A DNA stretch of 33,640 nt from a virus: the IMG/VR virus record IMGVR_UViG_3300021389_000084, positions 1-33,640 of that record; one strand, written 5' to 3'. A program made the translations under genes and the position numbers. Below the pieces are notes generated by a model, which saw only the letters and a program-made list of their open reading frames with translations, searched no databases and was not told where the DNA came from. Of this stretch, positions 18,945 to 25,876 are shown one piece after another (positions within the stretch are counted from its first letter, which is position 1; each line of letters begins with the position of its first letter).

Positions 18945-19790
18945 ATGAAATACAATAAGATTTTAAAACCTAAAAAGTTTGACAACTTTACTATTATACC
19001 TAGCTACATATTTAGGGATAAAGGCATTTCAGTTGGTGCTACTGGTTTGTATGCTTATCTATTTTCTCACACAGCTGAACAAGAAATAACAATACAATTT
19101 ATTTGTGGGCATTTTAAAGAGGGCAGAGATGCAATAGCTGCCAAAATAAATGAACTAATTAAACAAGGTTATTTAGAACGAGTAAAGGTAAAAGATAAAG
19201 GCAAATTCAAAGGTTACAATTATATATTAAAAGCTAATCGTAAGCGAGTTAATCGAGATCGATTAAAACCGAAGTCGGAAAATCCTAAACAAAGTAATAT
19301 TATATATAATAATAACATAAAGAGTAATATTACACAAACTGAGAAAATGCAAAAAGCATTCCCTCATTTTGTTGCTTTATTTGATTCTAGGTATCATCCA
19401 AAAACTGATGCACAAATAAAAAAATGGAAAGTGTGTTTAGATAGGTGTGTTCGCATTGATAAATATAGTTTAGATGAAATTTATTTAGCTGTTAAAAATG
19501 CTAGACAAAGTGAATTTTGGAAAAATAATTTTCTGACATTAACTAAAATTAGAAACCATGATAAAAATGGTATTATGTATATACACAGATTTATTGAAAA
19601 CAATAAAAAATACAATAAGCCAAAATGTTTCTATAAAATAAAAGGTATACAAGAATATAAATTATATAATGATCCTGATGGCTCTGAAAGATTAGGTGCT
19701 ATTACTAAATACAATAAACTCAATGAATTTAATTTATCACAATTTCTAAATAAAGATGAGATTGCAGAACTAAAAAACTTTATAAGATGA
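18945..19790 (+). CDS. Replisome organiser/DnaD-like replication initiation protein
   Basis: A 281-residue protein. Residues ~14-90 fit the winged-helix N-terminus of phage replication initiators: FTIIPSYIFRDKGISVGATG (the 'N-x-(I/L)-x-D--LS--A-GLY' pattern), LFSHTAEQEITI, FKEGRDAIAAKINELIKQGY then LERVKVKDKGKFKGYNYI. A polar linker with N- and R-rich stretches follows. The C-terminal half (residues ~125-280) is helical and basic, with WKVCLDRCVRIDKYSLDEIY and FWKNNFLTLTKIRNHDKNGI, resembling DnaD-type domains. It would bind the origin and load the primase-helicase two genes downstream. No origin iterons are obvious inside the gene. It overlaps the next gene by 4 nt. Confidence 0.75.
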   Translation: MKYNKILKPKKFDNFTIIPSYIFRDKGISVGATGLYAYLFSHTAEQEITIQFICGHFKEGRDAIAAKINELIKQGYLERVKVKDKGKFKGYNYILKANRKRVNRDRLKPKSENPKQSNIIYNNNIKSNITQTEKMQKAFPHFVALFDSRYHPKTDAQIKKWKVCLDRCVRIDKYSLDEIYLAVKNARQSEFWKNNFLTLTKIRNHDKNGIMYIHRFIENNKKYNKPKCFYKIKGIQEYKLYNDPDGSERLGAITKYNKLNEFNLSQFLNKDEIAELKNFIR

Positions 19791-20632
19791 AATTAGTCAA
19801 TTGTCTTAGTGGTGGCAAAACATCTAGTTACATAGCAGCTAATTATAAATCAGATCATAATGTTTTTGCTTTAGTTAGAACAAATGATGTTAAATGTATT
19901 TTTCCTGACAAAAAAACAAGACAAATAGTTTCTGATAAATTAGGTTTAGAGTTTATAGGTACACTTGAAGATGATATGATTATTTATACAATGCTTGATC
20001 TTGAACAATATATAGGTAAAAAAATTGATTGGGTAACTGGTAAAACATTTGAAAAGGTTTTAGATAGTGCTGGAACTTTGCCAGATCCATTAAGAAGATT
20101 TTGTACAACACAAATGAAACTTGTTCCAATGTTTAAATGGTGGCAAAGAAATATTAATAAACCAGCTAAATTTAATTTAGGTTTCAGAGCTAATGAAAAA
20201 AGGAGAGCTAAAAGAACTTTAGAAAAAACAAATAAAAATGGTTTGTTAGAAATGAAAGCCATTATTGGTAAACGTAAAACACAAAATAAATGGGGTTTAA
20301 TAGAATGGCAAAAACCAGTATTTCCATTAATAAAAGACAATGTGTTTAAAGATACAATTGTTGAGTTTTGGAAAAATAAACCAGTAAGATTTGCATGGAT
20401 GAATAATTGTGTTGGTTGTTTTCATAAACACCCATTACTTATAAAAAAAATGCATAATAAACATCCTAATAAAATTGAATGGTTTGCATCTAAAGAAAAA
20501 ATTAAACATGAAAAGGATGTTTGGTATAAATCAAAAAATTTATCATTTAGTGATATAATAAAATGGGACAATCAAATTGAGTTGTTTGACAATGAATTTA
20601 ATGAATGTGATTCTGGTTATTGTGGGTTATGA
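19787..20632 (+). CDS. PP-loop ATPase of the PAPS-reductase family (281 aa)
   Basis: The PP-loop LSGGKTS is at residues 7-13. The family's second motif, RRFCTTQMKLVPM (residues 103-115, with Cys106), matches the 'R-CT---K--P' of PAPS reductase/DndC-like enzymes. Further cysteines at 208 and 211 (NNCVGCFHKH) and 274 and 279 (ECDSGYCGL, at the extreme C-terminus) could bind a metal or an Fe-S cluster with Cys106. Family members activate a substrate with ATP, often for sulfur transfer; in phages the target is usually unknown and may be DNA or tRNA. A 4-nt overlap (ATGA) joins it to a nuclease-like gene. It is not a full Dnd system: no DndD/E partner is visible. Confidence 0.8.
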   Translation: MKLVNCLSGGKTSSYIAANYKSDHNVFALVRTNDVKCIFPDKKTRQIVSDKLGLEFIGTLEDDMIIYTMLDLEQYIGKKIDWVTGKTFEKVLDSAGTLPDPLRRFCTTQMKLVPMFKWWQRNINKPAKFNLGFRANEKRRAKRTLEKTNKNGLLEMKAIIGKRKTQNKWGLIEWQKPVFPLIKDNVFKDTIVEFWKNKPVRFAWMNNCVGCFHKHPLLIKKMHNKHPNKIEWFASKEKIKHEKDVWYKSKNLSFSDIIKWDNQIELFDNEFNECDSGYCGL

Positions 20633-23892: not shown

Positions 23893-24113
23893 ATAAATAC
23901 TTAAAAGCAAAATCCTGGTGTTTAGAAAACAATATAAAAATCTATATTGTACCTATAAGGTTTAAAAAAGAATGTTATGTTGAGATTGATAATAATGGTC
24001 AAATAACAAGATCACCTCATACATATGAGAATCAAAGCATTGCATCTAGCAAAATTTGGGATTTAAACTTATATTTGTATAACAAACACAGTGAAAATGA
24101 TAGAGAAAATTAG
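23889..24113 (+). CDS. Small hypothetical protein (74 aa)
   Basis: ATGA overlap with the gene before and a 17-nt overlap with the ParB-like gene after. The sequence has a mixed charge (AKSWCLENNIKIYIVPIRFK) and an asparagine-rich end. No domain recognised. The double overlap indicates coupled translation in the modification group. Confidence 0.6.
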   Translation: MNKYLKAKSWCLENNIKIYIVPIRFKKECYVEIDNNGQITRSPHTYENQSIASSKIWDLNLYLYNKHSENDREN

Positions 24114-24690
24114 TATAAAAAAATTAAAGCCAAATCCTAATAATCCAAGATATATTAGAGATGGTAAGTTTAAAAAATTAGTAAAATCTATTAAAGAATT
24201 TCCAGAAATGTTAGAAAAGCGACCTATTGTTGTTGATGAAAATTTAGTCGTTTTAGGTGGAAATATGAGATTAAAAGCGTGTCAATCAGCTGGTTTATTT
24301 GAGGTTTGGATTGATAAAGCAATTGGTTGGACAGAAAAACAAAAGCAAGAGTTCATTATTAAAGACAATGTTGGTTTTGGAGATTGGGATTTTGATTTAT
24401 TGGCTAATGAATGGAATACAAAATTAGTAGATGAATGGGGTTTAAATTTACCAGAGTTTATTGATCCAGATGACTTAGGAACTGATTTTGATTTACCAGA
24501 TGGAGACAAAGAGCCATTTCAACAGCAAACGTTTACAGTTGCAGACAATCAAGCTGAATTAATTAAAAATGCAATAACTGATATAAAAAAAACTGAAGAG
24601 TTTAAATATGTTGAAACTTTTGGAAATGAAAATAGCAATGGTAATGCATTATATTTATTAGTATCTCAATGGGCAGAGCAAAAGAAATAA
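24097..24690 (+). CDS. ParB-like domain protein (197 aa)
   Basis: Start MIEKISIKKLKPNPNNPRYI; ATG 24097 is chosen over GTG 24091. Residues ~1-60 show the ParB/Srx-like fold signature: ISIKKLKPNPNNPR (strand and 'N-N-R'), IRDGKFKKLVKSIKEFP helix, KRPIVVDENLVVLGGNMRLK ('GG-MR' motif). The C-terminal part is acidic and Trp-containing. Phage ParB-like proteins often neighbour DNA-modification genes and may cut or modify DNA rather than partition it; no ParA is present. It overlaps the Mom-like gene by 22 nt, so the two are likely made together. Confidence 0.8.
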   Translation: MIEKISIKKLKPNPNNPRYIRDGKFKKLVKSIKEFPEMLEKRPIVVDENLVVLGGNMRLKACQSAGLFEVWIDKAIGWTEKQKQEFIIKDNVGFGDWDFDLLANEWNTKLVDEWGLNLPEFIDPDDLGTDFDLPDGDKEPFQQQTFTVADNQAELIKNAITDIKKTEEFKYVETFGNENSNGNALYLLVSQWAEQKK

Positions 24691-25340
24691 TTGTTAAAAT
24701 AATTAAAAGCAACATTGCTAATGAATTTGTCAAAAAAAATCATTATTCTGGCAAAATAGTTTCGATGTCACAAATACATTTTGGATGTTTTTTAGACAAA
24801 AAATTGCATGGAGTTATGTCTTTTGGTCCACCAATGGATAAAAGAAATGTTTTAAATCTAGTTGAAACTGTAAATAAATCAATAAATCAAAAGTGGAATG
24901 AAATGCTTGAATTGAATAGAATGGCTTTTGATGATTATTTACCTAAAAATTCTGAAAGCAGATGTATTTCAATAGCATTTAAATTAATTAAAAAAAATGC
25001 ACCTCAAATAAAATGGATTTTATCTTATTCAGACGCAACTCAATGTGGAGATGGTACTATTTATAGAGCAAGTGGTTTTAAATTAACAAACATTAATAAA
25101 AATGGTACTATATATAAGTTAGCTAATGGAGAGATTGTTGCAAAGAGAGGTGATTCTAAATATAATTTTGAAGGTGCAAAAAAATTAAAAGGATTTCAGA
25201 ACAGATATATTTATCTTTTAGATAAATCTTGTAAAATTAAAGTTGATATATTACCTTTTAGTGAAATTGATAAAAAAGGAGCTGGAATGTATAAAGGAGA
25301 AAAAATATCTTTAGAAAAAAGAAAAAACATGCGTGATTAG
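24669..25340 (+). CDS. Mom-like DNA-modification GNAT protein (223 aa)
   Basis: Resembles the phage Mu Mom family of adenine-modifying acyltransferase-like proteins. Visible motifs: ANEFVKKNHYSGKIV (His-Tyr), IHFGCFLDKKLHGVMSFGPP (GNAT strands), MLELNRMAFDDYLPKNSESR ('ELNRM...D..P.NS.S') and IKWILSYSDATQCGDGTIYR then ASGFKL ('SYSD...G.IY.A.GF'). In Mu, Mom turns adenine into a carbamoylmethyl form, protecting DNA from restriction. Here its companions are a ParB-like protein, a C5 methylase and a nucleotide-pool-like protein. The product is not determinable from the sequence. Start 24669 gives a 22-nt overlap with the ParB-like gene; the 3' end overlaps a structured RNA element. Confidence 0.7.
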   Translation: MGRAKEIIVKIIKSNIANEFVKKNHYSGKIVSMSQIHFGCFLDKKLHGVMSFGPPMDKRNVLNLVETVNKSINQKWNEMLELNRMAFDDYLPKNSESRCISIAFKLIKKNAPQIKWILSYSDATQCGDGTIYRASGFKLTNINKNGTIYKLANGEIVAKRGDSKYNFEGAKKLKGFQNRYIYLLDKSCKIKVDILPFSEIDKKGAGMYKGEKISLEKRKNMRD

Positions 25341-25401
25341 CATATACAGTAATGTGCCTAGCAATCCAGCTAGGAAAAGGGGTGCAATTCCACCATCACG
25401 C
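25331..25401 (+). ncRNA. Cloverleaf-forming (tRNA-like) RNA element
   Basis: A 7-bp perfect terminal helix GCGTGAT (25331-25337) / ATCACGC (25395-25401) closes three hairpins: GCAT/ATGT (25340-25343/25352-25355, 8-nt loop), CCTAGC/GCTAGG (25357-25362/25369-25374, 6-nt loop) and GGTG/CACC (25381-25384/25391-25394). The helices follow with tRNA-like spacing: TA after helix 1, G after helix 2, AAAAGG before helix 4 and no gap before the closing strand. Length is 71 nt. However, no normal 7-nt anticodon loop with U33 and no canonical T-arm are present, and CCA is not encoded, so I do not call a functional tRNA. The 5' strand overlaps the stop codon region of the Mom-like gene. Confidence 0.5.
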
Positions 25402-25423
25402 TCTAATTAACTTAAAAAAAATT

Positions 25424-25454
25424 TTGTTTTTTAAAATATTCTTTTATATATTTG
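25424..25454 (+). promoter_or_regulatory. Consensus Bacteroidetes promoter TTG-N20-TATATTTG
   Basis: TTG (25424-25426) and TATATTTG (25447-25454) are exactly 20 nt apart, the best -33/-7 match in the window. The -7 box ends 24 nt before ATG 25479. Confidence 0.75.
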
Positions 25455-25478
25455 TAATAAATTTAAAACATTACAATT

Positions 25479-25766: not shown

Positions 25767-25768
25767 AA

Positions 25769-25807
25769 CCTAATATAAAAAGCCAGGTGGGAGCTATTGG
25801 CATTAGG
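25769..25807 (+). other. Bulged RNA hairpin upstream of the terminator
   Basis: CCTAAT (25769-25774) pairs with ATTAGG (25802-25807), and GCCA (25782-25785) with TGGC (25798-25801), leaving a 7-nt 5' bulge (ATAAAAA) and a 12-nt loop GGTGGGAGCTAT. The two helices stack without a gap on the 3' side. The element follows the acidic gene at once and may be a 3'-end processing or stability element. Confidence 0.5.
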
Positions 25808-25812
25808 TAATT

Positions 25813-25865
25813 AAAAGGGTTATTCGCCTACAGTGATTCACAGTTTAGAATTTCCCTTTTTTTTT
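25813..25865 (+). terminator. Long terminator after the acidic gene, before the terminase genes
   Basis: AAAAGGG (25813-25819) and CCCTTTT (25854-25860) pair, extended inside by ATTC/GAAT across a TT/TT internal loop and capped by a hairpin GTG-ATT-CAC; nine T follow (25857-25865). The rod is near-symmetrical and may work on both strands. Confidence 0.7.
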
Positions 25866-25868
25866 ATG

Positions 25869-25876
25869 TAATTTTG
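25869..25876 (+). promoter_or_regulatory. -7 element TAATTTTG four nt before the small terminase ATG
   Basis: Exact TAnnTTTG. It ends only 4 nt before ATG 25881, so the expected transcription start falls at or within the start codon: a leaderless or near-leaderless mRNA is predicted. Confidence 0.5.

Follow-up and report, generated by a model that had tools for sequence, protein, structure and literature searches.

Mom enzymes chemically disguise DNA by forming N6-carbamoylmethyladenine, the added group of which is derived from glycine, and to our knowledge no donor of that group has been established since the first description of the modified base. A CoA-linked donor, glycyl-CoA, has been suggested (PMC7824862). 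The stretch of viral DNA analysed here, termed the window (33,640 nt; positions 1 to 33,640 of IMG/VR virus record IMGVR_UViG_3300021389_000084), carries a mom-like gene whose stop codon overlaps a cloverleaf-shaped RNA, and the question raised by this locus is what such an RNA does at the end of a DNA modification gene.

The mom gene and the overlapping RNA

The features of the locus are as follows.

24669..25340, + strand: mom-like DNA modification gene, 223 aa (Pfam Mom, 160 bits); its stop codon overlaps the RNA, and the two share 10 bases
25331..25402, + strand: tRNA-Gly-like RNA, predicted to be non-decoding, from the acceptor stem to discriminator base U73 (R1 covariance-model match of 77.9 bits, the single match in the window; 52 homologues)
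25331..25337, + strand: 5' strand of the acceptor stem, GCGTGAT, with G1, C2 and G3 invariant (alignment columns and pair counts)
25340..25355, + strand: D arm, with a 4-bp stem (25340-25343/25352-25355) and the D loop ATACAGTA, which lacks G18G19
25357..25374, + strand: anticodon-like arm, with a 6-bp stem (25357-25362/25369-25374) that includes a C32-G pair and has two-sided changes at 6/6 pairs
25379..25394, + strand: T arm, GGGG-TGCAATT-CC[A]CC, with an invariant unpaired A25392
25395..25402, + strand: 3' strand of the acceptor stem, ATCACGC, followed by U73 (alignment and pair counts)

The window Mom is an intact member of the Mom family. Its AlphaFold2 model (mean pLDDT 88) has the phage Mu Mom structure 8bv8 as its top fold match, followed by GNAT acetyltransferases, and S124 of Mu Mom corresponds to S97 of the window protein, a residue that is invariant (40/40). 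The 8bv8 entry is named methylcarbamoylase, and its S124 alanine mutant is described as inactive. Upstream of mom are a PAPS-reductase-like gene (19787-20632) and a ParB/sulfiredoxin-like gene (24091-24690); the latter, also found ahead of mom in Psychrobacter phage Y8A, may form part of the modification module. Another structured stretch of non-coding sequence (25767-25875, MFE z of -2.2) separates a small ORF from the gene for the terminase small subunit and ends in a T-run; it is conserved at 95-97% in loci L001-L003 only, and L004 has just its terminator-like half. No similarity between the window and named phages was detected in a DNA similarity search.

A preliminary description of this DNA had recognised the overlap between the RNA and the mom stop codon, and also T8-A9, which are seen directly after the acceptor helix at 25338-25339. 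In the T stem, G25379 and G25380 pair with C25393 and C25394, and G25381 and G25382 pair with C25390 and C25391, leaving A25392 bulged. The anticodon-like loop of the window, AAUCCA, contains C35 and C36 and lacks the standard 7-nt arrangement with U33; the loop measures 8 nt, or 6 nt if the stem is counted as 6 bp. The bases following U73 are CTA, so CCA is not encoded. The 25331-25401 segment folds with an MFE of -23.9 kcal/mol (z = -3.7), the second-lowest value among 909 sampled 71-nt stretches of the same strand. Cloverleaf geometry in a single sequence is not decisive: chance produces it often in so AT-rich a window, and a loose scan for nested 7+4+6 helices returned 23 places in the window versus about 9 per Markov-shuffled window.

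Standard tools alone would miss the element. ARAGORN called no tRNA in the window, and Rfam at its gathering thresholds returned no match for the element; under permissive settings the sole tRNA-related Rfam match was the tymovirus tRNA-like element (RF00233), at 19.4 bits against a threshold of 40. The two RNAs are alike in the D and T arms, through which this weak match arises, but the phage RNA has an ordinary covarying acceptor helix with no 3' pseudoknot, and glycine rather than valine identity.

Conservation and covariation in related phages

Viral contigs were scanned with the window Mom protein, which yielded 80 loci, or 81 with the window itself. When the bases after mom were read in each, a tRNA-like element was found beside mom in 81/81, a count that does not represent 81 independent events as the loci are related by descent. 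In all 80 relatives the acceptor ends are GCG...CGC with T as the next base, and a TCC-type anticodon loop is present in nearly all. The R1 covariance model likewise gave one strong match per locus in 81/81 and nothing comparable elsewhere in those loci. Except where the element is within the ORF or where mom is tandemly duplicated, it and the stop codon of mom overlap or are no more than about 30 bases apart. It is wholly contained in the mom reading frame in 8/80 loci (L023, L024, L056, L062 and others), and in L051 and L060, which have tandem copies of mom, a single RNA follows the second copy.

These loci contain 52 distinct element sequences, with a mean identity of 63% and a lowest identity of 40%. 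Across their alignment, 99.2% of stem cells are paired under the bulged-A structure and 17 of the 21 pairs show two-sided changes, with a covariation score of 0.836 compared to 0.257 after shuffling and at most 0.177 when the structure was slid. Compensatory changes in the four stems, which the preliminary description had named as the check on its cloverleaf, are thus present; it is these covarying stems in the relatives, and not the geometry of one sequence, that make the cloverleaf certain. The RNA is real, and is a member of a conserved RNA family found beside mom in hundreds of related phages. The four helices originally drawn measured 7, 4, 6 and 4 bp, and the 7-, 4- and 6-bp helices stand as placed. 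The T stem has been redrawn: its GGTG/CACC pairing (25381-25384 with 25391-25394) is found in 76% of cells and a standard unbulged T stem in 58.8%, versus 98.6% for the stem with the bulged A, and the first two models were rejected. The complete set of invariant columns (n = 52) is G1, C2, G3, G10, C35, C36, the bulged A, C70, G71, C72 and U73.

Orientation and expression

Among the 52 distinct sequences the strand of the element with respect to mom is split 26:26, which excludes a cis-acting mRNA element. Copies on the strand opposite mom need a promoter of their own, and the Bacteroidota promoter motif TAnnTTTG is present no more than 40 nt upstream in 12 of the 26 minus-strand copies versus 2.4% of background windows (P = 2e-13, an optimistic value as kin sequences contribute to the count of 12). 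The motif is located 12-20 nt before G1, one copy having a second motif at 27, and many of the remaining minus-strand copies have GTATATTGT in its place. The mom transcript can serve as the precursor of copies on the mom strand, that of the window included. Just 3' of the window RNA and before the next small ORF, at about 25420-25460, the sequence resembles a promoter of the Bacteroidota type (TTTTG, then TATATTTG), pointing to a host among the Bacteroidota for the window phage.

Glycine identity and decoding features

The identity elements recognised by bacterial glycyl-tRNA synthetase are G1-C72, C2-G71, G3-C70, U73, C35 and C36. All of these are invariant in 52/52 sequences, and by sequence the invariant columns, once G10 and the bulged A are set aside, appear to be exactly this set.

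As controls, 19 distinct genomic tRNA-Gly genes were taken from bacteria carrying related mom genes. In every one the T stem is canonical and the 7-nt loop carries U33 (both 19/19), and the bulged A occurs in 0/19. Among the phage elements, by contrast, at least 4 of the 5 canonical T-stem pairs are found in 0/52 and the bulged-A stem in 52/52; the anticodon loop is 8 nt long in 27/52, and U33 is kept in 2 of the 25 seven-nucleotide loops. The T-stem region at 49-65/51-63 is read by EF-Tu, and the equivalent positions are paired in 1/52 (49-65) and 0/52 (51-63) of the elements. G18G19, lost in the window, has a counterpart in the GG kept in the D loop of 31/52 relatives. A Watson-Crick 32-38 pair was discarded as a diagnostic by itself, since U32-A38 occurs in 13/19 of the host tRNA-Gly genes, though C-G occurs in 0/19.

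The original view that this is a cloverleaf and yet not a normal tRNA, with anticodon-like and T-like arms unfit for a functional tRNA, is borne out by these comparisons. The suggestion of a degenerate tRNA is not: selection on the element is strong across many phages, and it keeps the bases expected for glycine charging. It is like canonical bacterial tRNA-Gly(UCC) in its acceptor ends, U73, C35 C36 and overall cloverleaf, and unlike it in the T stem, position 33, loop length and, in some members, the D arm. The element retains the bases expected for glycine charging and has lost features needed for decoding.

Distribution among Mom clades

A second set of loci was fetched with a Mom 52% identical to that of the window (Psychrobacter phage vB_PmaS_Y8A type). 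The model identified the element in 65 of 75 new loci, and 5 more were recognised by eye, one of them cut at a contig end. Psychrobacter phage Y8A itself has two tandem copies beside mom (L083, 2162-2299), which encode CCA and have next to no D arm, and ARAGORN found none in this locus. Versions of about 65 nt with almost no D arm also occur in L101, L105, L110, L125, L168, L176 and L344, and several of these RNAs encode CCA. Beside Moms of the Salinibacter phage B2_17 type, which are about 25% identical to the window Mom, the element was found at 21/28 loci plus 2 by eye, and the B2_17 copy has the same bulged A. Bacterial contigs of several phyla with window-clade Moms, prophages included, carry it in 25/35 cases plus 1; the bulged A is present in 18 of 24 distinct elements from these contigs, and some Firmicutes copies have another base bulged or a normal T stem. 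An odder tRNA-like remnant with CCA follows mom in a Tenericutes contig (L313, after 3738), apparently with no normal anticodon arm.

The RNA is absent near Mu-type Moms, including that of Mu (0/32), and near Polaribacter P12002L-type Moms (0/74, one ordinary tRNA-Met only); proteobacterial Mu-like genomic Moms have ordinary tRNAs only. Within the window clade, L117, L121, L131, L142, L171 and some Firmicutes contigs lack the element. A linked tRNA is therefore not essential for every Mom, and Moms with no linked RNA may use the Gly-tRNA of the host. A quick Mom tree, the deep branches of which are weak, places the RNA mainly in two clades; both are well supported, but their relative order is not.

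With one exception, the element is the sole model match in phage records that carry Mom and measure no more than ~50 kb. A 155-kb phage has ten matches, the best of which is the bulged RNA beside (upstream of) mom; the other nine are elsewhere, clustered at 124-139 kb. Model matches in L086 (tRNA-Trp), L096, L243 (tRNA-Met) and most of L345-L385 were set aside as ordinary tRNAs with normal T stems.

Alternative explanations

The strongest evidence consists of the covariation, the invariant set, the presence in two deep Mom clades and the 26:26 orientation. It could be argued that the RNA acts on Mom with no donation of glycine, as a cofactor, guide or regulator, either by binding and activating Mom or by an RNase P cut across the stop codon that gates the mom mRNA. 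The linkage to Mom is consistent with this, as is the overlap with the mom stop codon in the window and many relatives and the placement wholly inside the ORF at the eight loci noted above. Where the RNA lies inside the ORF, tRNA end-processing would cut the mom mRNA, and it is possible that Mom and RNA levels are coupled through an in-ORF or overlapping RNA gene. A regulator would leave unexplained the invariance of exactly the glycine identity bases and U73, the CCA encoded in some copies and the equal use of both strands, and we regard this explanation as unlikely.

A normal phage gene for tRNA-Gly, helping with decoding and changed by drift in the window phage, is a very improbable reading of the element. 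ARAGORN does report a tRNA-Gly, or a tRNA whose loop is odd, in 21 of the 80 relatives, and the Salinibacter phage B2_17 copy is annotated as tRNA-Gly, but the canonical T stem and U33 that are universal in the host genes are absent or nearly so here, the strong covariation excludes drift, and the strict neighbour is mom and not a tRNA cluster. Similarly little weight is given to a decoy against host defences directed at tRNA-Gly, such as the toxSAS enzyme FaRel2: tRNA-Gly is named as a target, and FaRel2 is described as reading its acceptor stem (PMC11559606), and the phage RNA does keep the acceptor stem and U73, but the near-exclusive linkage to mom, the conserved C35 C36 and the bulged A are left unexplained. 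A remnant of a packaging site, origin or attachment site, which the location directly ahead of the window's terminase genes might recall, has a negligible probability given the covarying RNA stems, the copies on either strand, those after duplicated mom in L051 and L060 and that upstream of mom in L203. The placement between modification and packaging genes given in the preliminary description holds for the window, but the conserved partner is mom and not the packaging genes. Because the charging bases are kept, selection is strong and either strand is used, readings of the element as a relic in decay, a site for packaging, an origin or a signal acting in cis on the mRNA are rejected.

Proposed role and comparison with known systems

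The element is, with high probability, a phage-encoded derivative of tRNA-Gly that operates outside translation as the private glycine donor of Mom. This reading best explains an RNA that is co-conserved with mom, keeps the glycine-charging bases, has lost decoding features and is paired with a GNAT-fold enzyme. It is likely, with slightly less assurance, that this is a tRNA dedicated to DNA modification, its charged form being the substrate of Mom, and that momylation is an aminoacyl-tRNA-dependent modification of DNA bases. What the comparative data show is the family, its architecture, its association with mom and its promoter motifs; glycylation, escape from EF-Tu and delivery of the group to DNA are inferred.

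The pathway we envisage would begin with transcription of the RNA together with mom, or from its own promoter on the other strand, followed by trimming, with CCA either encoded or added. Charging by the host glycyl-tRNA synthetase is proposed because G1-C72, C2-G71, G3-C70, U73, C35 and C36 are kept, and poor or no use by EF-Tu and the ribosome given a T stem disrupted at 49-65/51-63 and an anticodon loop that is 8 nt long or has no U33. The FemX/FemA/FemB aminoacyl-tRNA transferases are GNAT-related, and Mom, with its GNAT fold, could in the manner of FemX-type enzymes move the glycyl group from the RNA onto adenine N6 of DNA. Attack of the glycyl amine on C6, presumably an intramolecular rearrangement, would then give N6-carbamoylmethyladenine, a route put forward on chemical grounds only, and the modified phage DNA would resist host nucleases.

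A precedent exists in the non-proteinogenic tRNA-Gly of S. aureus, which serves cell-wall synthesis, is altered at 49-65, 51-63 and G18G19, and with these weakened EF-Tu determinants feeds the FemX/FemA/FemB aminoacyl-tRNA transferases (PMC4052509). The phage RNA is similarly weakened, but differs in having a T stem with a bulged A and an anticodon arm with no normal 7-nt decoding loop; it is encoded in phage genomes next to mom, with DNA in place of peptidoglycan as the presumed acceptor. The window Mom is homologous to that of phage Mu (PF25680, PDB 8bv8), with the same fold and the conserved serine, but no tRNA gene adjoins Mu-type mom, and for Mu a CoA ester has been suggested as the donor. 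Our literature search, which covered few subscription journals and no preprints, found no paper joining Mom with a tRNA, so prior publication is possible. The parts, namely Mom enzymes and a tRNA-Gly kept from translation for cell-wall synthesis, are known, and their combination appears to be new in the literature covered.

A co-conserved, apparently non-decoding tRNA with glycine identity points to glycyl-tRNA as the donor for Mom, and makes the question of that donor directly testable. If this is true, it is a DNA modification that depends on a tRNA, and the RNAs form a class overlooked by tRNA finders and Rfam. The RNA would also be a marker by which momylating phages can be found, and may perhaps provide a general reason for the odd single tRNAs carried by some phages.
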